Source: Psychromicrobium lacuslunae (GTDB lineage Bacteria > Actinomycetota > Actinomycetes > Actinomycetales > Micrococcaceae). Taken from it: a stretch of DNA of 64,000 nt. Numbering within the stretch: position 1 is the stretch's first letter; the number at the start of each line of letters is the position of its first letter. The notes below the pieces were generated by a model. It had not been told where the DNA came from and did no database searches. It was given only the letters and a program-made list of their open reading frames with translations. Shown here in pieces: positions 26,970-35,411 of the stretch. The translations under genes were made by a program, and so were the position numbers. Where the stretch lies: positions 2,046,001 through 2,110,000 of the forward strand of contig NZ_CP011005.1 of NCBI RefSeq assembly GCF_000950575.1. Reading direction: 5' to 3'.

Positions 26970-27335
26970 GGCTTAGCTCTCTTCTCTGTAGCTTCGATAG
27001 AACTGCTTGAGCGCTTGCTGCTCTGTTGACTTACTGTGCACTGCCTATATCTAGTGCTTATGCAGATACTGAATCCGGAGCATTACCGGGTTCCTCAATA
27101 CCTCAGAACACCGACCCCCGCGCTCGGGCGTGTCGCGTATTTCACGCAAACTCGACCGGACAACAAAAGTTGGTGGGTTATGTTTTGGTCTTCAACTTGG
27201 CCCCTCACACCCGGCATTATCCGGATGGGGACGCGAAGAAGCGCTTGAACAACCCTTCTAGTGTGCCAGACTTTCAGGGATTAAGCCAACCTGCGACGAT
27301 TTCGCTAGCGGCTACCATCCGCTAGCTCAACGATG
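26970..27335 (-). promoter_or_regulatory. S10 operon leader and promoter region
   Basis: No believable gene lies in these 366 bases. A possible minus-strand promoter reads TTGTCC, 18 bases, TACGCG (in 27133-27162), which would leave a leader of about 160 bases. An 8-bp inverted repeat GCTAGCGG/CCGCTAGC at 27304-27326, just after the end of the amidohydrolase-like gene, may mark the end of that operon but has no T-tract. Both assignments are weak. Confidence 0.35.
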
Positions 27336-28124
27336 CTATTCGGCAAAGAGTAAATTCGCAGCATTCTGTCGTGACCACGCTGAGCTTTCTTCGGCGGACA
27401 CTCGGTGGCGAGTAAAGAAATCAGCCCTCCAAGCGGGGAAGTCGGCCAAGGCCAGATTGGCTGGCTGGCCGAGGTCAGAGCTGAGAATGCTGCGCGGGTG
27501 GGCGCGAAGGGCTGCGATTAGCTCAGCCTCTTCACGTCGAGCCATCAAGACGGTCAACGCGGTCTGCTCAATAAATACTTGCGGCGAGTTACCGAGCTGC
27601 TCGATATCGGCCAAAGACAGCCCCGACATCGGGTGATAGGCGTGAGTCACCAGCAACCTGGCGAGCCCTAACTGAGCAGCGAGCTGAACCGTCTCGAACA
27701 CCTGCGGACGCCCGGCATGCCCGGTGGCCAGCACCGCGTCGTGGTCCCGGATGACCCCGAGCAGTTCTGCTGCCAATTTCGTTAGTGAACCAGCCTCGGT
27801 AAACAGCAAGGCCGAATTGCGGCCCGGCCGGGTCGGCCAGTACACCATGAGCCGAGCTGAACTGCGCTGGGAGCGCTTCGCAGCATCGGCCACGAGCGCT
27901 GGGGACGGTTCCCCCAAAGCATCGTTGAGCACTATTGAGCCAGAGACCGGCAAGCCATCGCCCTGTGCTGCCACGGTCGCATCCACGCTACTAAGCTGAT
28001 GACTCTTGATCACTCCCCAAGCGTTCAGCGCTTTAAACTGGGCGGCGGCTTCAGGGACGCTGTGCCGGCGTAGCTGTTCGTCTTGACTGGCGTGATAGTG
28101 CGGGTCTATCCAATCAGGCTGCAC
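27336..28124 (-). CDS. amidohydrolase-like protein (DUF6282-type), last gene of the LysR-facing operon
   Basis: The 262-residue protein has features of a metal-dependent TIM-barrel hydrolase: WIDPHYHAS with His9-x-His11 at the N-terminus, an internal TGHAGRP, LVTHAYHP and a late SSDLGQP that could supply the aspartate. It resembles small amidohydrolase-like proteins known as DUF6282, but I assign that from memory and the substrate is unknown. It starts 3 bases after the RraA-family gene, so it is surely co-transcribed. It could hydrolyse a lactone or amide at the entrance or exit of the pathway encoded by the operon. Confidence 0.75.
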   Translation of the reverse strand: MQPDWIDPHYHASQDEQLRRHSVPEAAAQFKALNAWGVIKSHQLSSVDATVAAQGDGLPVSGSIVLNDALGEPSPALVADAAKRSQRSSARLMVYWPTRPGRNSALLFTEAGSLTKLAAELLGVIRDHDAVLATGHAGRPQVFETVQLAAQLGLARLLVTHAYHPMSGLSLADIEQLGNSPQVFIEQTALTVLMARREEAELIAALRAHPRSILSSDLGQPANLALADFPAWRADFFTRHRVSAEESSAWSRQNAANLLFAE

Positions 28125-28127
28125 TGG

Positions 28128-28796
28128 CTAAGCAGACTCCGCAGCCCAAGGCTGGGCATATCCGAAGCTGGAGCGTGCCTGGGCCAGCGACATCCCGGCG
28201 CGCACCGCTTCGGCGATCCGTTCCTCGGTGAGGCGCACCCGCTCGGCACGCTCTACTACTTCAGCGAGCAACTCGGCCGGCACTACCAGCGCCCCGTTGT
28301 CATCGGCGAGCACATAGTCGCCCGGAGCCACCGGCAGGCCGGCCAGATCAAGCCGTTCGCCAACTGCCGCTAGTTCAACCCGGTTCTTCCCACTCACCAT
28401 TGAGACCCCAGCACTGAACAACGGAAACCCCAGTTCCCTGGTCTCAGCGAGGTCCCGAACCGAACCAAAGACGATAGAGCCAGCGACTTTCCGAAGTCCC
28501 GCCGTGATGGTGAGCAACGAACCCCAGGTGGTGCACTCCAATGAACCGGCATTATCAGAGACGATCACCGCCCCCTCCGGCACCTCGTCAATGTAATTGG
28601 CGGCATTGCGAAATCCGCCGACAGGGTCAGCGATGGCTTGGTAGCGCACCGTAAAAGCCGGACCACAAAACCGGGAACCCGGAACCCGAGAGACCACCTG
28701 CGGGATCTTGCCCGGTACGCCCAGGCTGTCTAATGCGTCGGAGACTTCGGCGGTATCCAGCGCGGCTAAACGCTCAGGGAGATTGCTGGGGGTCAT
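28128..28796 (-). CDS. RraA-family protein (possible HMG/CHA aldolase or oxaloacetate decarboxylase)
   Basis: The 222-residue protein has the RraA fold motifs: the TAEVSDALDSLGVPG N-terminus, FGSVRDLAETRELGFPLFSAG with the conserved Arg-Asp, and DYVLADDNGALVVPAELL. Family members are metal-dependent 4-hydroxy-4-methyl-2-oxoglutarate aldolases and oxaloacetate decarboxylases, or RNase E inhibitors. As the neighbours are catabolic enzymes, an aldolase or decarboxylase is more likely than an RNase regulator. The ATG at 28796 overlaps the upstream TGA by four bases. Confidence 0.85.
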   Translation of the reverse strand: MTPSNLPERLAALDTAEVSDALDSLGVPGKIPQVVSRVPGSRFCGPAFTVRYQAIADPVGGFRNAANYIDEVPEGAVIVSDNAGSLECTTWGSLLTITAGLRKVAGSIVFGSVRDLAETRELGFPLFSAGVSMVSGKNRVELAAVGERLDLAGLPVAPGDYVLADDNGALVVPAELLAEVVERAERVRLTEERIAEAVRAGMSLAQARSSFGYAQPWAAESA

Positions 28797-30964
28797 GATT
28801 GCGAATCCTTCTTTACGTGGTGGATCAGGGCGAGTAAACAAAAATCACGGATTGCGGTCTGGATTTCCGGGCCACGATTAGGGAAGACCGCGCGGCGACT
28901 ACCCCCTCTGGCTGAGCCGTCGACCGTCACGATCACCCTGACCGTGCCGGTGTGCTCAGTCTCTGAGCCGCCCTGCCACTCCAGCGAAGTCTCCAGATCG
29001 TAGCCTTGCTCCGCCCCGCCCAGCCCTTCCAGCAGCGCTGCGGCGGCACCACTGACCGATCCCAATTTTGCGTTCGGGGTGGCGGCCAGCTCGGCGAGCG
29101 CGTCACGTCCGTCCCTGCTCACCAGCTGCTCGGCGAAGCGCTGATCCAATTCAGCTTCGAGCGCCGTCGAGAGCTCGCCGTCAAGGCGCACATCGACATA
29201 TGGGTAATTCCACACCGTGTGCAGTTCGACCTCAGACTGATGACTCGCCAGGGCCTGGTGGAAGGCCTCGGCGAGATCGGACTCGACCGCTCCAAGCAGC
29301 CTCCAGCTGTGTTGCTGAGGAGGCTGATGGCTCGGCAAGCTATTAATAAATTGGGCCAGCATCGGCTCGCACTCCTTGGGCGGACCGGGAAACACACCGA
29401 TGCGGGTGCCACGAACCAGCAGACTGAAACCGGCCGCGGTGCCGTTCGGATTGCTCAGAACCTCCGCCCCTTTGGGGAAAAACGCTTGACGCCGATTAGT
29501 CTCGGAGGCCTCAATGCCGAAGGAATGCAGTCGCTGAACAACGCCTGCCCAGACTTGTTCGTCAAAGCCCAGCTCAGCTCCGCAGGCCTTGGCCACCGCC
29601 TCCCGAGTGATGTCATCCGAGGTGGGGCCCAGGCCACCAGCGACCACCAGCACGGCATCCCGACCGATGGCGGCCGAAGTGGCGTCGCTAATATCAGGTA
29701 TCAGGTCGCGCAGGGTGCTGTGCTGGCGTACTTCGTAACCTTGTTGGCTCAATCGGGCGGAGGCAGCCCGACTATTAGAGTCGAGATAGTCGCCAGCGGT
29801 GAGTTCGCCGCCAATCGTCAGGATACTGGCGGTGGGCCGAGCTCGATGACCGCCGAGCCGCTTACGCAGCTCACCAACCACTGTGCTCATAGTGGCGTTG
29901 CCACCCAAGTCATAAGTAAGAACTTTGCGGTCAGTCACCATGCTGACCACCGCCCTGCTGAGTTCTGCGCTCTGATCAGCAAATCCCAGGTGGCTCAGCA
30001 TTTGTGCCGCGGTAAGCGCCATTGCCAGTGGATTAGCTTTGTCCTGACCCGCCATCTGTGGCGCGCTACCGTGCACCGGTTCGAAGTAGCTGGTACTTGA
30101 GCCGTAATTTCCGCTGCCAGCCAGTCCCAGGCCACCCATCATTCCCGCCCCGAGGTCGGAGAGGATATCCCCGAACATATTCTCCGCGACGATCACCCCG
30201 AACTGCTCGGGACGCCGAACCATCCAGAGCGCAATCGCGTCGACATTATGGATATCCGCGGTGATTTCCGGATATTCGGCGGCAATCAGCTCAAAGCGTT
30301 CGCGCAGATGATTTCCGCTGTAACGCATCACATTGGGTTTATCAGCCACGGTCACCCGATGGTGTCCATGTTTGCGAGCGTACTCGAAGCTGAATCGGAA
30401 GAGCCGATCCATCGCTGATTCGGTCTGCAGGCGAATACTCGCGCTGCTTCGTTCCCGGCCGGAAACATCAGCATTGGGATGATCTTTCACTAACTCCCAC
30501 AAACCTTCAGGTGGTTGGTGGTAGTCAAAACCGGCGTAGAGCCCTTCCGAGTTCTCCCGGATCACCGCGAATCTAAAACGCTGATTGACCAGGTCTTCGG
30601 AAACTCGCACATTTGCGAATAAGCCCAGGCGCTGACGAAGCTGAATCACCGGAGAAACATATTTCAGACCCCTATCCCGCAGTTCCGGAGCCAGCTCCTG
30701 CTCGGCCTCCCGTAAGGGTTTGCTGGTCACGGCGCCTAATAGACAACTGTCCGATTTCTCCAGTAAATCCCAGGTTCGTTGCGGTACTGGATCGCCCTGT
30801 TCGCACCACTGCTGCCAGCCAATTGCGCCCTCTTCAAAGGCAATCGGCAGGCCAAAGCCGTCAAGGGCCGGAATCAGCTTGTCAAGGATTTCGCTACCGA
30901 TGCCGTCCCCGGGTAATACCGCAATGCGGCGCTTCGTGGGACTGCTAGAAGGTTCAGTGCTCAT
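28793..30964 (-). CDS. fusion of isocitrate/isopropylmalate-type dehydrogenase with a CinA-like protein
   Basis: One uninterrupted frame of 723 codons joins two enzymes. Residues about 12-373 are a beta-decarboxylating dehydrogenase: LPGDGIGSE, RENSEGLYAG (Tyr143), VADKPN (Lys209), metal aspartates near 242, 266 and 270, and EPVHGSAPQMAGQDKANP for NAD binding, ending in DLGGNATM. Residues about 380-545 are the CinA N-terminal domain (GGELTAGDYLDSN, GGLGPTSDD at 443-451, NPNGTAAGF, FPGPPKE). Residues about 553-723 look like the CinA middle domain and a degenerate PncC domain lacking ESCTGG. The family of the dehydrogenase half includes tartrate and isopropylmalate dehydrogenases. The ATG at 30964 overlaps the previous gene by 11 bases; a TTG at 30979 is possible. 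No frameshift or internal stop is seen at the junction. Confidence 0.85.
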   Translation of the reverse strand: MSTEPSSSPTKRRIAVLPGDGIGSEILDKLIPALDGFGLPIAFEEGAIGWQQWCEQGDPVPQRTWDLLEKSDSCLLGAVTSKPLREAEQELAPELRDRGLKYVSPVIQLRQRLGLFANVRVSEDLVNQRFRFAVIRENSEGLYAGFDYHQPPEGLWELVKDHPNADVSGRERSSASIRLQTESAMDRLFRFSFEYARKHGHHRVTVADKPNVMRYSGNHLRERFELIAAEYPEITADIHNVDAIALWMVRRPEQFGVIVAENMFGDILSDLGAGMMGGLGLAGSGNYGSSTSYFEPVHGSAPQMAGQDKANPLAMALTAAQMLSHLGFADQSAELSRAVVSMVTDRKVLTYDLGGNATMSTVVGELRKRLGGHRARPTASILTIGGELTAGDYLDSNSRAASARLSQQGYEVRQHSTLRDLIPDISDATSAAIGRDAVLVVAGGLGPTSDDITREAVAKACGAELGFDEQVWAGVVQRLHSFGIEASETNRRQAFFPKGAEVLSNPNGTAAGFSLLVRGTRIGVFPGPPKECEPMLAQFINSLPSHQPPQQHSWRLLGAVESDLAEAFHQALASHQSEVELHTVWNYPYVDVRLDGELSTALEAELDQRFAEQLVSRDGRDALAELAATPNAKLGSVSGAAAALLEGLGGAEQGYDLETSLEWQGGSETEHTGTVRVIVTVDGSARGGSRRAVFPNRGPEIQTAIRDFCLLALIHHVKKDSQS

Positions 30965-31715
30965 TGATGAATTGCTCAATTTTCTCTCGTAGGAATTCCG
31001 GTTCTTGCTGATGCGCCCGCATACCTGCGCGGGCGACTTCCAAGCTCTGATCCTGCTCTCGGCGACGCAGATGTTCCCGGGTCACCAGTTGGGACAGCTC
31101 GCCCACAATTGACAGGATCCGCCCGTCGTAGTTCGCAACTGCACCACTGAGCTCCAAACCTTGGAAGAAGCTCAGCGCCTCAGTCCGTGGGTTTGACCGC
31201 GAAGAGCTTTCGGTCAACTGAGCTTCGTTCGACTCGACTAACGGCGCGGAGCCCGTTGTCCCGGGGGCGATTAGCTGAGTGAGTAGCTGGTGCGCGGCCT
31301 CAGCGTTGCCGCTGCGATTCAGCTCCACAATGGCATTCAATTTGCCCACCAGCACCGGGTCGGCGACGGTTGGTGAAGAAAAAAGCACCACCGGAAGGTG
31401 CACTCCACTGTCCTCCAGCAAGGCTTGAAGCACCGCGCCGCCAAGGGCGTTTCCAGCCAGCAGATCGAATTCTGAGAAATCGATCCGAGCGCGCCAATAA
31501 GCTACCAGGGCGGCAAAGTCGTGCACCGATTTGCCAACCGGCTCGACGGTGTCAACGAAGTTAATTCTGTGTCCGCGCTCGCGCAATAAAGCAGCCAATG
31601 GTTCAAAGAAGGCGCCCTGATCCCAGCTCGGTAAATACGGCGCCAAGAAGAGCCAATGCTGACCCCTCAGCTGCTCAGCATTCAGCTCTTCTTCACCGAG
31701 CCTGGCGCTGGTCAC
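30954..31715 (-). CDS. alpha/beta-hydrolase-like protein lacking the nucleophilic serine
   Basis: The 253-residue protein reads like an alpha/beta-hydrolase: HWLFLAPYLPSWDQGAFFEPLAALLRERGH as a first strand and helix, a strand-elbow-helix at LLAGNALGGAVLQALL, and LPVVLFSSPTV as the next strand. The elbow is G88-N-A90-L-G, so Ala replaces the expected Ser/Cys/Asp nucleophile. It therefore may bind rather than hydrolyse, or use another mechanism. The fold call is from pattern only. The GTG start overlaps the aldolase stop (GTGA), and the 3' end overlaps the dehydrogenase-CinA gene, so it is embedded in the operon. Confidence 0.7.
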   Translation of the reverse strand: MTSARLGEEELNAEQLRGQHWLFLAPYLPSWDQGAFFEPLAALLRERGHRINFVDTVEPVGKSVHDFAALVAYWRARIDFSEFDLLAGNALGGAVLQALLEDSGVHLPVVLFSSPTVADPVLVGKLNAIVELNRSGNAEAAHQLLTQLIAPGTTGSAPLVESNEAQLTESSSRSNPRTEALSFFQGLELSGAVANYDGRILSIVGELSQLVTREHLRRREQDQSLEVARAGMRAHQQEPEFLREKIEQFINEH

Positions 31716-32677
31716 AGCTGGCCCGCTGATACCAACGCAGGAAGGCGCTGCTCAGCCAGCTTCTGCGCTACCTCCAGCATCTTCGGCGGAGAAGGATGTT
31801 CGATCAGGCCGAGCTTCTCTACGCTCAGATCGAAGTGACCGAGCACAAAATTGGACATATTGAGTTCGGGCAGCGAAGCGGGAATCTCACCGCGCAACAG
31901 ATTAACCAGTGAGATCGCTTCTCCTAAGTCCAGCTTGCCGGAATCCCAGCCGCTTCGAAGCAGATAGGAGAACCACTCCTCGGTCCGTAAGTTGCCGGAG
32001 CCCTTGCCCATCCCCATCAGGGAGGAATCGATCCAGCTGGCGCCGCTCTCCACCGCGGCAATCGAGTTAGCCAAGGCGAGACCGAGGTTATTGTGCGCAT
32101 GAAAACCGACAGTCAGCCCAGGATGCTGTCCCACGGTGGTGCGAATCAGCTGCTGGGCGGTTCCGGGAATCAGGCTGCCATTCGAATCCGCGAAGTAAAT
32201 CAAATCGGTGTCAAAGGCGAGCGCCGATTCCAGCGAAATCAGCAGGTCTGCCGGGCTCTTCTCCGAAACCCGAGTGATATTGAGGCTCACGATGAACCCT
32301 TGATCTTGAGCTGCTTTAATAATGCCCGCCTGATGATCTCCGCCGCGGTCCGACCAGCAAATCCGCAGCAATCGCGCGCCGGAGTCGTACATCCGATGGA
32401 TATCGTCAAGGGACACGTTCTTACTGTGCAAAATCATGGCGAGGTGTTCTGAACCAATTTCCTCAGCCATTCTGGCGATGTACCTGTCATCTCCACGGGC
32501 AGTGAGTTCCAAATCGTTGCTTGATTTGAAAGAGCCATTACGGTAGCCGATTTCAACCCAATCAAAACCAGCGCCAACGCTCTGTTTGGCATGCCTGATC
32601 GCATATTCGAGTGGAAACGCGAAACTGTTTCGATACCCGCCATCACGCAAGGTGACATCAATATTTGTAGTTAACAA
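31712..32677 (-). CDS. HMGL-like aldolase (DRE-TIM metallolyase, 4-hydroxy-2-oxovalerate aldolase-like)
   Basis: The 321-residue protein starts NIDVTLRDGGYRN, with the DRE-TIM motif at residues 7-13 (Arg11-Asp12), and has HAHNNLG with His193 and His195 as metal ligands, followed by GASWIDSSLMGMGKGSGN. These are the active-site features of the HMG-CoA lyase/isopropylmalate synthase/4-hydroxy-2-oxovalerate aldolase superfamily. The nearest type is the stand-alone aldolase domain rather than LeuA: no regulatory domain follows. It would make or break a C-C bond next to a 2-oxo acid. It is the first enzyme gene after the MFS gene. Confidence 0.88.
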   Translation of the reverse strand: MLTTNIDVTLRDGGYRNSFAFPLEYAIRHAKQSVGAGFDWVEIGYRNGSFKSSNDLELTARGDDRYIARMAEEIGSEHLAMILHSKNVSLDDIHRMYDSGARLLRICWSDRGGDHQAGIIKAAQDQGFIVSLNITRVSEKSPADLLISLESALAFDTDLIYFADSNGSLIPGTAQQLIRTTVGQHPGLTVGFHAHNNLGLALANSIAAVESGASWIDSSLMGMGKGSGNLRTEEWFSYLLRSGWDSGKLDLGEAISLVNLLRGEIPASLPELNMSNFVLGHFDLSVEKLGLIEHPSPPKMLEVAQKLAEQRLPALVSAGQL

Positions 32678-32705
32678 CTTTTTCTCCCAGGAAGAACAAA
32701 AGAAC

Positions 32706-33956
32706 TCAGGAACGGGTTAGTTTGCCGCGCATGATAACGCGAATAAGGGTTACAGCTGCTAGTGCCATCAACACCAGACACAGCCAGCTAAAGGTGGCAC
32801 TCAGGCCAAATACTTCAGAAACTTTGGCCGCGATGATGGTTGGTACTGAGATCGCCAAATAGGCCGAGATGAAGTACGCCGCCATCACTTCGCCACGTTG
32901 CTCCGAGGGAGCAGACGCACTGATGCGCCGAGTAGAGGACATGAAGCCAATGCCAAATCCAGCCCCGGTGACCAGATTGCCAATCAGAAAAGCCGGAGTG
33001 GAGGCATTCCCCACCCCGATCACCACGATGACCAAGCCGATCAGCAAGGCCAGTAGTGCCAGAATGGTCGCCCGGTGGGTGCTGACTTTACGGAACAAGA
33101 GTGAAATTAGTCCGCCGAAGCCCTGCAACAGCAGCACCATCAGACCGGGAAGCCAGACGCTTGAGCTATTGAAAAGCTGCTTGCTAATCGTGCCGCCGAG
33201 GGAGAGGTAAATGCCGGCCACTGACCAGGCAACCACCACCACTAAAACGGCTGTGGCGAATTCAGGGCGCGCTGCCGCCGGCAGGGCTAGCTTCTGCACT
33301 TTGACCAGAAATCTCCACTGCAGACGCTGCGGATTCTGGACGGTTTCACGCACCCCAAAGAGCGCCAATAAATTCAGCACTCCAATGATCAGTAACACTG
33401 CGTAAGGAAACTGTAGTGGGAAGGTTTGCAACGCTAGACCAAGGCAGGCGAGAAGCGCCCCCATCGCGATACCAGTGGATTGCACCGCAGAATTGTAAGT
33501 TGCGGCGTGACCAGCCGCGTGTTGCGGCTCCACATCGGTCAGTAAAGCGGTTGCGGTTGCGGTGAACACCCCAGTGGCTAAGCCCTGCACCGCTCGGGCA
33601 ATATACAACCACTCCACTGACGGTGCGAAAAAGAAAATTAGCAAGCTGAAGAGCACCAGTCCAAAACTGATCAGAATGGCGGGCTTGCGGCCAAGCCGAT
33701 CCGAGACGCCCCCCAGAAGCAGCAGGGAAACCACCACTCCGGCTGCATAAGTGGCGTAGACGGTGGTCAAGATGGTTGGCGAAAAGCCCCACTCATGTTG
33801 ATATTCGACATAAAGCGGCGAGGGTGCGCCGCTTGCCGCCAAAGTGAGGAAGATGGCAGAAAGCACCACCAGAGTGCAATAGCTAGCAGGTAATTGCGGC
33901 GCTGACGAGACCGCGTCTTGCAGTTGCTGTCGCGGGGTTGAAGTCGGCGAATTCAA
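32706..33956 (-). CDS. MFS transporter, first gene of the LysR-facing operon
   Basis: The 416-residue protein has twelve predicted spans. The motif A loop GGVSDRLGRKPAIL follows span 2, and ARAVQGLATGVFTATATALLTD matches span 5 of drug/H+ or sugar-efflux-type MFS proteins. It is the first gene of the operon and 167 bases from the divergent LysR gene. Since all the following genes are catabolic, import of the substrate is likely, but sequence alone would also fit efflux. The aldolase gene starts 28 bases after its stop. Confidence 0.88.
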   Translation of the reverse strand: MNSPTSTPRQQLQDAVSSAPQLPASYCTLVVLSAIFLTLAASGAPSPLYVEYQHEWGFSPTILTTVYATYAAGVVVSLLLLGGVSDRLGRKPAILISFGLVLFSLLIFFFAPSVEWLYIARAVQGLATGVFTATATALLTDVEPQHAAGHAATYNSAVQSTGIAMGALLACLGLALQTFPLQFPYAVLLIIGVLNLLALFGVRETVQNPQRLQWRFLVKVQKLALPAAARPEFATAVLVVVVAWSVAGIYLSLGGTISKQLFNSSSVWLPGLMVLLLQGFGGLISLLFRKVSTHRATILALLALLIGLVIVVIGVGNASTPAFLIGNLVTGAGFGIGFMSSTRRISASAPSEQRGEVMAAYFISAYLAISVPTIIAAKVSEVFGLSATFSWLCLVLMALAAVTLIRVIMRGKLTRS

Positions 33957-34069
33957 GAATAGATCCTCCGTTGTGAGACCGCTCTGATCGAGGTCAAGAG
34001 GCGGTCGAGCGGGGCGGGCGAGTTGAGTCTAATTCTCGACATATCGCTTTGGCCAAGTGCTTAGAAGCA

Positions 34070-34095
34070 CTATCCTGTATAGGTAATCAGCTATA
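34070..34095. promoter_or_regulatory. overlapping inverted repeats, probable LysR operator
   Basis: Three half-sites CTAT-N5-ATAG and TATAG-N8-CTATA overlap (34070-34082 and 34078-34095), about 30 bases before the LysR start and in the shared intergenic region with the MFS operon. Dyads of this size with T..A ends match LysR-type binding sites. Binding is inferred from position. Confidence 0.6.
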
Positions 34096-34123
34096 GCTCA
34101 ATAACAGATCAAGACGGAGCATC

Positions 34124-35041
34124 GTGAATGATCTCAAAGCCTCATTGGACGGAATTGACGTACGTCATCTGAGGTATTTTCAGGAAGTCGCTGCTCTTGG
34201 CAGCGTTTCCGAAGCGGCCAGCTCACTTGGCCTAGCCCAGCCGAGTCTAAGCCAGCAAATTATTCGGCTCGAGGACAAACTCCATGTCAAGCTTTTTAAG
34301 CGAGTTCCCTCAGGCGTCGAGCTCACTGCGGATGGCGAACGGCTGCTCCCAGTCGCCGATCATTTTACTAGCGCACTGGGAAAATTCATCCGCGAGACCG
34401 CTTCGCCGGCGGTATCGTTCCGGATCGGCATATCTGCGGGTATTCCCTCGGCAGTGCTGCAATCTCTGGAACGAGCCACTAAGTTAGATGGCTCCTTTCC
34501 GGACTGTCGGATGGAGTACCAGGCGCTGCCGTCCAGCAAGCAAATCGACTTGCTGCGCGCCAAGCGTCTTGACCTAGGTCTAATCCACACGGTCGCACCA
34601 ATGAATGATCTTATTGTCCAAGGCATCGGATCGTTTCCGCTGGGCGTCTACCTCAGCACCGACCACCCTTTGGCGAGCCGTGATTCGCTCAGCTGGAATG
34701 ACTTGGTACAGCAACGACTGCTCTGGTTTAAAAGGAGCTTCGCGCCGGGTTATTCGGAATACATCCTGGATCATTTACGGGCGCATGGCTGGCGTCCCGA
34801 ATTGGAATACGTCACGCCGTCCCGGGCGCTTTTTGAATATACGCTGAGCCATCGCGACGATGTGGTGGCGCTCAGACCGCAGAGCGCCGTCGAGAATAAC
34901 TCACAATTCCGCTGGTTTGCTCTGGACGATCCGCCTCGCGAGGAAGTGTTCGCGGCAGTTCATCCCAAGTCAAAAGCAATCGCATTGATTCCGCACCTGC
35001 AGTCATTAACTGAGCTTGGACTTACGCCCTCGCCGCACTAG
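34124..35041 (+). CDS. LysR-family regulator of the divergent aldolase/dehydrogenase-CinA operon
   Basis: The 305-residue protein has the N-terminal winged HTH at about 13-72 (LRYFQEVAALGSVSEAASSLGLAQPSLSQQIIRLEDKLHVKLF) and the periplasmic-binding-like effector domain (FRIGISAGIP...). The GTG or ATG start region is set by AAGACGGAGC before 34124. It is divergent from the MFS-led operon at 33956, the classical layout for a LysR activator that senses a pathway substrate. Inverted repeats lie between the two genes. Confidence 0.92.
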   Translation: MNDLKASLDGIDVRHLRYFQEVAALGSVSEAASSLGLAQPSLSQQIIRLEDKLHVKLFKRVPSGVELTADGERLLPVADHFTSALGKFIRETASPAVSFRIGISAGIPSAVLQSLERATKLDGSFPDCRMEYQALPSSKQIDLLRAKRLDLGLIHTVAPMNDLIVQGIGSFPLGVYLSTDHPLASRDSLSWNDLVQQRLLWFKRSFAPGYSEYILDHLRAHGWRPELEYVTPSRALFEYTLSHRDDVVALRPQSAVENNSQFRWFALDDPPREEVFAAVHPKSKAIALIPHLQSLTELGLTPSPH

Positions 35042-35095
35042 CTGGGGCTGCGATCAGGTCACCGCGGGAAAAGACTTTGCCCGTACTTGGCTAAG

Positions 35096-35221
35096 CTATT
35101 CCCCGCGATTTGAGCGGCGGATCTGCTTGTACCTGGTGATCTCCTTGCTAAAGGTCTTCCTTAGCGTAAAGCCGACCGCTACCAGAGCCACCACGACGAT
35201 CAGAAAAATTATCCAGCCCAT
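35096..35221 (-). CDS. 41-residue single-span membrane protein
   Basis: An ATG at 35221 preceded by AGAAGG at a distance of seven bases opens a 41-codon frame: a hydrophobic span (WIIFLIVVVALVAVGFTL) followed by a strongly basic tail (RKTFSKEITRYKQIRRSNRGE). Net charge places the tail in the cytoplasm. No known family is recognised. It lies between LysR (convergent, 54 bases from stop to stop) and tuf, and is the only reasonable coding sequence in the 370-bp gap. The evidence is the good start site plus the protein-like composition. Confidence 0.6.
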   Translation of the reverse strand: MGWIIFLIVVVALVAVGFTLRKTFSKEITRYKQIRRSNRGE

Positions 35222-35355
35222 GCCAAACCTTCTTTCGCTCCATCTTTGCGTTCAGCTTATCAGCGCACGCTGTGCCCCCTGGCGACTCTTCCCGAAGCAA
35301 CCATGGCGGCTTCGGGGAGTGGGCGTCCACCAGTTCTAAAGACAGCTTAGAGACG

Positions 35356-35391
35356 AAAAAGCCCCGTCCGGCTAACCGGACGGGGCTTTTT
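35356..35391 (-). terminator. tuf terminator
   Basis: GCCCCGTCCGG (35361-35371) pairs with CCGGACGGGGC (35376-35386) around CTAA, flanked by AAAAA and TTTTT, so it can work in both directions. It is 21 bases after the tuf stop. Confidence 0.92.
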
Positions 35392-35411
35392 CTAAGAACT
35401 TAGATCAGCAA

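Follow-up and report, generated by a model that had tools for sequence, protein, structure and literature searches.

The β-decarboxylating dehydrogenases, among them isocitrate (ICDH), homoisocitrate (HICDH), isopropylmalate (IPMDH) and tartrate dehydrogenase, have in common with the dehydrogenase (IDH) half of the fusion protein described here their fold, the catalytic Tyr/Lys, an Arg and the metal-binding Asp residues (nearest PDB entries 6lky and 1x0l). For the second half, the closest described system is bifunctional CinA, organised as COG1058-KH-PncC and represented by the Thermus thermophilus enzyme (TtCinA, PDB 4ct8). The fusion shares with it a full ADP-ribose diphosphatase site and a KH-like linker, but adds an N-terminal dehydrogenase and has a degenerate PncC domain that is missing the Lys segment. 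In M. tuberculosis drug-NAD adducts are cleaved by the COG1058 domain, and mutation has shown residues equivalent to E387, D420 and D451 of the fusion to be essential in one COG1058 protein (PMC3680494, PMC9033802). In the FAD synthase-COG1058 fusions of animals and plants a COG1058 diphosphatase-type domain is likewise joined to an enzyme that handles adenine dinucleotides, although the partner enzyme is different and COG1058 is N-terminal in plants and C-terminal in animals. The neighbouring genes recall the class II pyruvate aldolase systems of aromatic catabolism (LigK/RraA, DmpG-type HMGL), with which the locus shares related RraA and DmpG-like enzymes and LysR and MFS neighbours; it differs in having no ring-cleavage enzymes and in adding the IDH, an unusual α/β-hydrolase-fold protein and DUF6282. 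As far as the literature searched shows, the architecture has no earlier description, as had been supposed.

The fusion gene lies in a stretch of 64,000 nucleotides from Psychromicrobium lacuslunae (contig NZ_CP011005.1), here called the window (Table 1). An earlier note, made from the sequence of the window, had described a single uninterrupted dehydrogenase-CinA frame, and this description holds: the product has 723 residues, and since the same fusion is carried in one ORF at 36 other, independent loci, it is neither a chance event nor a sequencing or frame error. The start codon, ATG 30964, overlaps the stop of the gene upstream; translation could instead begin at TTG 30979 and would then give a 728-residue version, the numbering of which applies to the hmmscan matches with Pfam Iso_dh (residues 19-364, E 1.8e-73) and MoCF_biosynth (residues 386-546, E 1.1e-25). 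At the other end, the TGA overlaps the ATG of the RraA gene (ATGA). The minus strand encodes, in this order, the MFS transporter, the HMGL-like aldolase, the 253-residue protein, the fusion, RraA and DUF6282, and the overlapping starts and stops indicate one operon.

Table 1. Features of the cassette and of the fusion protein, with positions in the window.
Feature	Position	Strand	Remarks
DUF6282 protein	27336-28124	-	Pfam search
RraA-like class II aldolase/decarboxylase	28128-28796	-	ATG 28796; listed ORF starts TTG 28841
IDH-CinA fusion gene, 723 aa	28793-30964	-	uninterrupted ORF, no stop
Degenerate PncC/NMN-deamidase remnant, residues 621-723	28796-29104	-	catalytic Lys segment missing
KH-like linker domain, residues ~549-620	29105-29320	-	alignment to TtCinA 4ct8; predicted model
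COG1058 (CinA N-terminal, MoCF-fold) diphosphatase-type domain, residues 376-548	29321-29839	-	E387, D420, D451 metal ligands; invariant D450
β-Decarboxylating dehydrogenase domain, residues 14-365	29870-30925	-	catalytic residues intact
α/β-Hydrolase-fold protein, 253 aa	30954-31715	-	no Pfam match
HMGL-like pyruvate-type aldolase, closest to 4-hydroxy-2-oxovalerate aldolase	31712-32677	-	
MFS transporter	32706-33956	-	
LysR regulator, divergent	34124-35041	+	

The Iso_dh match of the window protein scores 248 bits against a cut-off of 27. Its active-site Tyr143, Lys209 and metal aspartates, noted before, are indeed in place, as D242, D266 and D270 in the case of the aspartates, and R136 accompanies them. 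S104, which in a manual alignment with ICDH we take to occupy the position of Ser113 of the E. coli enzyme, is 97% conserved. The substrate class is a different matter: for the NCBIfam equivalogs of isocitrate, homoisocitrate, isopropylmalate and tartrate dehydrogenases all scores listed lie far under the cut-off (at best 262.9 bits against 540, for AksF2), the specificity region reads TSKP...SPVIQLRQRL, and in the tree the IDHs of the cassette fall together with full support, set apart from four LeuB-type controls. The Asp of the LeuB-type motif HGSAP-D-(I), which belongs to the adenosine site of NAD-dependent relatives and is present in all four controls, is replaced by Q303 in the window protein and mostly by Ala, Arg, Gly, Lys or His elsewhere in the family, so that the label 'NAD-dependent' given in the earlier note is unsupported.

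The CinA-like half spans residues ~376-620, and its nearest PDB match by phmmer is TtCinA (4ct8, E 9e-28); the COG1058 protein 3kbq is matched as well, and eukaryotic FAD synthase more weakly. The GGLGPTSDD motif is intact, in agreement with the first reading, and the TtCinA diphosphatase residues E12, D20, D45, D76 and E156, with roles as described (PMC4246079, PMC3680494), all have counterparts, at E387, D395, D420, D451 and E531 respectively. E387, D420, D450 and D451 are invariant in 39/39 fused copies, and from its residues the COG1058 half looks catalytically competent. E531 corresponds to the Glu that binds the terminal ribose in TtCinA; it is Glu in the window but Gln in 15/39 fused copies, and ADP-ribose may therefore not be the substrate. 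The PncC-like end had been called degenerate, correctly so: the segment that holds the catalytic Lys301 of TtCinA is missing in all 39 fused copies, and from the alignment we conclude that the NMN-deamidase end is dead, the mapping of T340 onto the remnant being unsure. AlphaFold2, run on 21 fused relatives, gave a mean pLDDT of 86 and a pTM of 0.61; the top Foldseek matches of the first half of the model are isocitrate and homoisocitrate dehydrogenases, and the mutual placement of the predicted domains is poorly determined at this pTM.

Of the neighbouring proteins, that of DUF6282 is probably a metal-dependent TIM-barrel hydrolase or lyase, a fold suggested by its HxH motif. The nucleophile elbow of the α/β-hydrolase-fold protein holds Ala or Ser, with no conserved nucleophile in the family alignment, and an invariant Arg lies near the C-terminus; these features make it unlikely to be an ordinary hydrolase. 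The operon block sits between rpsJ and tuf. This interval is variable within the genus (window 27000-35400 compared with L163-L169, of which L165 has an MFS gene there) and six congeneric genomes all lack the fusion; this speaks against inheritance within the genus, and the cassette looks inserted. An anti-phage defence system is set aside, as the PADLOC models gave no match for the fusion, the HMGL-like aldolase, the α/β-hydrolase-fold protein or DUF6282. A known natural-product or catabolic cluster is likewise set aside, as literature on the cassette, DUF6282, P. syringae RraA loci and NAD adducts held nothing relevant.

A scan of 84,980 species genomes gave at least 589 confirmed relatives, of which the best 80 were kept. 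These 80 comprise 36 IDH-CinA fusions, two split IDH-CinA pairs, 17 IDH-RraA fusions and 25 separate IDHs; the hosts of the CinA fusion include Streptomyces, Lentzea, Pseudomonas, enterics, Bartonella and one Bacteroidota MAG. Whether the fusion recurs with the same neighbours had been posed as a check, and it does recur, at 36 further intact loci among the best 80 relatives, with the cassette around it except in degraded Bartonella copies and on cut contigs; what had been missed is this conserved cassette of several genes, of which CinA is an optional part. The cassette comprises an HMGL-type aldolase, the α/β-hydrolase-fold protein, IDH with or without CinA, an RraA aldolase and DUF6282, with an MFS gene usually added, and it accompanies nearly all of the best 80, the exceptions being two Williamsia loci, short contigs and degraded Bartonella loci. 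The Williamsia genomes (L055 and L069) carry a close IDH relative (56-57% identity) alone, without other cassette genes. Among these best 80 of at least 589 relatives the fusion and five-enzyme cassette span three phyla, a distribution that suggests an undescribed pathway. By gene-fusion logic, the alternative fusions IDH-RraA and RraA-DUF6282, the latter seen in L057, would place IDH, RraA and DUF6282 in that pathway together. Plasmid searches with tblastn returned no record holding most of the query, the matches listed covering approximately the IDH half, and no E. coli homologues of the Cedecea fusion were found.

The presence of CinA on the tree needs six changes, which fits an early fusion followed by repeated loss; a single origin is not proven. 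Loss is indicated by two Rhodospirillales MAGs that lie inside the CinA group and keep of the CinA part only a short remnant without the metal ligands. About half of the related loci among these 80 have no CinA half, and some CinA-less cassettes occur in genomes without a clear COG1058: no strong match was found in the genomes of S. lincolnensis (which has a weak, partial one), P. corrugata, P. cerasi or Rathayibacter. The core pathway thus does not need CinA, any clean-up that CinA performs is dispensable, and CinA is accessory to the core chemistry of the cassette.

Clusters without CinA often contain a nitronate monooxygenase (NMO) and an ABM protein, together with a luciferase-like monooxygenase (mostly with a flavin reductase) or an FAD oxidoreductase. 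One such CinA-less locus is L058:9927-14762, which with related loci in Pseudomonas, Burkholderia and Serratia has luciferase-like monooxygenase, flavin reductase, ABM and nitronate monooxygenase genes. In Legionella (L059, L062, L067 and others) a partial RimK-like ATP-grasp gene lies directly upstream of the cassette in most loci. Its stand-alone CinA is ruled out as a cassette partner by its housekeeping context next to obgE/rplU (L147:6237-7337, L148:8053-9159); its PncC part is degenerate too, and it groups, on long branches, with the fused CinA of L040 and L042.

Such exchanges would fit alternative tailoring, in which COG1058 acts on the pathway itself, removing the nucleotide of a nucleotide-linked intermediate or, like its relative MogA/Cnx1G, adding one, while the monooxygenase/ABM genes or the Legionella ATP-grasp take the same core to a different product. 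No cluster combines CinA with the NMO/ABM module (present in 0/39 rows with CinA and in 19/40 without it, Fisher 2e-7, though few independent lineages underlie the difference and a sign test is not significant), and CinA clusters mostly carry a Bcr/CflA-type MFS. However, no kinase or nucleotidyltransferase is seen in CinA clusters and the CinA half in Bartonella outlasts most of the pathway genes, so that we place this explanation on the unlikely side.

The Bartonella copies separate the fates of the two halves. In L043, L044, L045, L047 and L091 changes have struck the IDH residues Y143, R136, K209 or D270, the combination differing between copies, and the COG1058 ligands are kept. Pairwise dN/dS for COG1058 is 0.08-0.11 in both Bartonella groups, whereas for IDH most values in the intact group are ∼0.09, the two closest pairs giving 0.12 and 0.19, and those in the altered group are 0.20-0.26. 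Seven distinct disrupted copies contain 16 stops, 14 in IDH, none in COG1058 and two after it; zero stops in COG1058 has P = 0.012 under a uniform expectation, stops within one copy not being independent. Decay is not confined to IDH, since one copy shifts frame close to the COG1058 end and others do so just after it. Disrupted fusion genes occur in several Bartonella species (L156-L161, L037, L090 and L091). The COG1058 half in Bartonella is under separate purifying selection, and because it stays intact and tightly constrained where the IDH has lost catalytic residues, the CinA half probably has a function of its own.

This bears on two further explanations. The CinA half might be mainly structural or regulatory, clasping the dehydrogenase dimer or sensing adenine nucleotides, with catalysis irrelevant. 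The retention of a shortened, ligand-less remnant in the Rhodospirillales copies would suit such a role, as would Thermus isocitrate dehydrogenase (2d1c), which is longer than other family members and aligns past the dehydrogenase part, albeit with poor superposition. Neither the invariance of the metal ligands in all 39 full fused copies nor the status of COG1058 as the most constrained part in Bartonella is expected from it, and we regard it as improbable. Alternatively, in Bartonella and perhaps in other hosts the fused half may have assumed the housekeeping role of an ADP-ribose/NADH diphosphatase, the fusion being carried along with the cassette. Where a Bartonella species has a COG1058 match, it mostly lies in the fusion gene alone, where it outlives the IDH, and no second COG1058 domain was found in the window's own genome. 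Against this, enterics have a full housekeeping CinA in addition to the fusion, a COG1058 domain is altogether absent from many Bartonella genomes, and the fusion remains in the cassette across phyla; such a takeover seems very improbable.

Our best explanation, held tentatively and with slightly less than even confidence, is a two-enzyme fusion of a pathway dehydrogenase with a working diphosphatase that would cleave an adenine-dinucleotide by-product, the core reaction being independent of it. The IDH half would be the β-decarboxylating dehydrogenase of a horizontally spread, undescribed pathway that also uses the HMGL aldolase, the α/β-hydrolase-fold protein, RraA and DUF6282. We infer that it oxidises and decarboxylates a 3-substituted malate to a 2-oxo acid, which the RraA enzyme would then handle. 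2-Oxo-acid enolates add to NAD. The COG1058 half, a putative nucleotide diphosphatase tethered to the dehydrogenase ahead of a dead NMN-deamidase tail, would most likely cleave a cofactor-derived or nucleotide-linked by-product such as a 2-oxo-acid/NAD(P) adduct or ADP-ribose; the clean-up of damaged cofactor suggested in the earlier note is still an inference.

As to the direction of the pathway, the MFS of CinA clusters L016, L023, L034, L038 and L042 scores above the Bcr/CflA family cut-off, while that of the Lentzea relative L015 and the window's own fall below it; the PunC and FslD models also match MFS genes, below cut-off. The Bcr/CflA type favours export in most CinA clusters, although the same family includes importers. 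We lean to biosynthesis of a small exported acid, at about an even chance. A LysR regulator and aldolases of the pyruvate type would fit a catabolic pathway as well, for which we see a lesser, though real, probability. The fuller reading of the CinA branch, that the fused diphosphatase repairs a nucleotide adduct made by the pathway and that the cassette makes an undescribed small molecule across three phyla, including Legionella, Bartonella, plant-associated Pseudomonas and Streptomyces, is doubtful as a whole.

The cassette represents a recurrent five-enzyme pathway without a name, shared by environmental and host-associated bacteria and by producers of antibiotics. It also provides a concrete case of a CinA-type diphosphatase physically tied to one particular dehydrogenase. 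In view of the drug-NAD adducts that CinA cleaves in M. tuberculosis, a dehydrogenase-CinA pair found in nature would test which adducts CinA evolved to remove and, if the adduct-repair reading is true, would represent metabolite damage control within one polypeptide.
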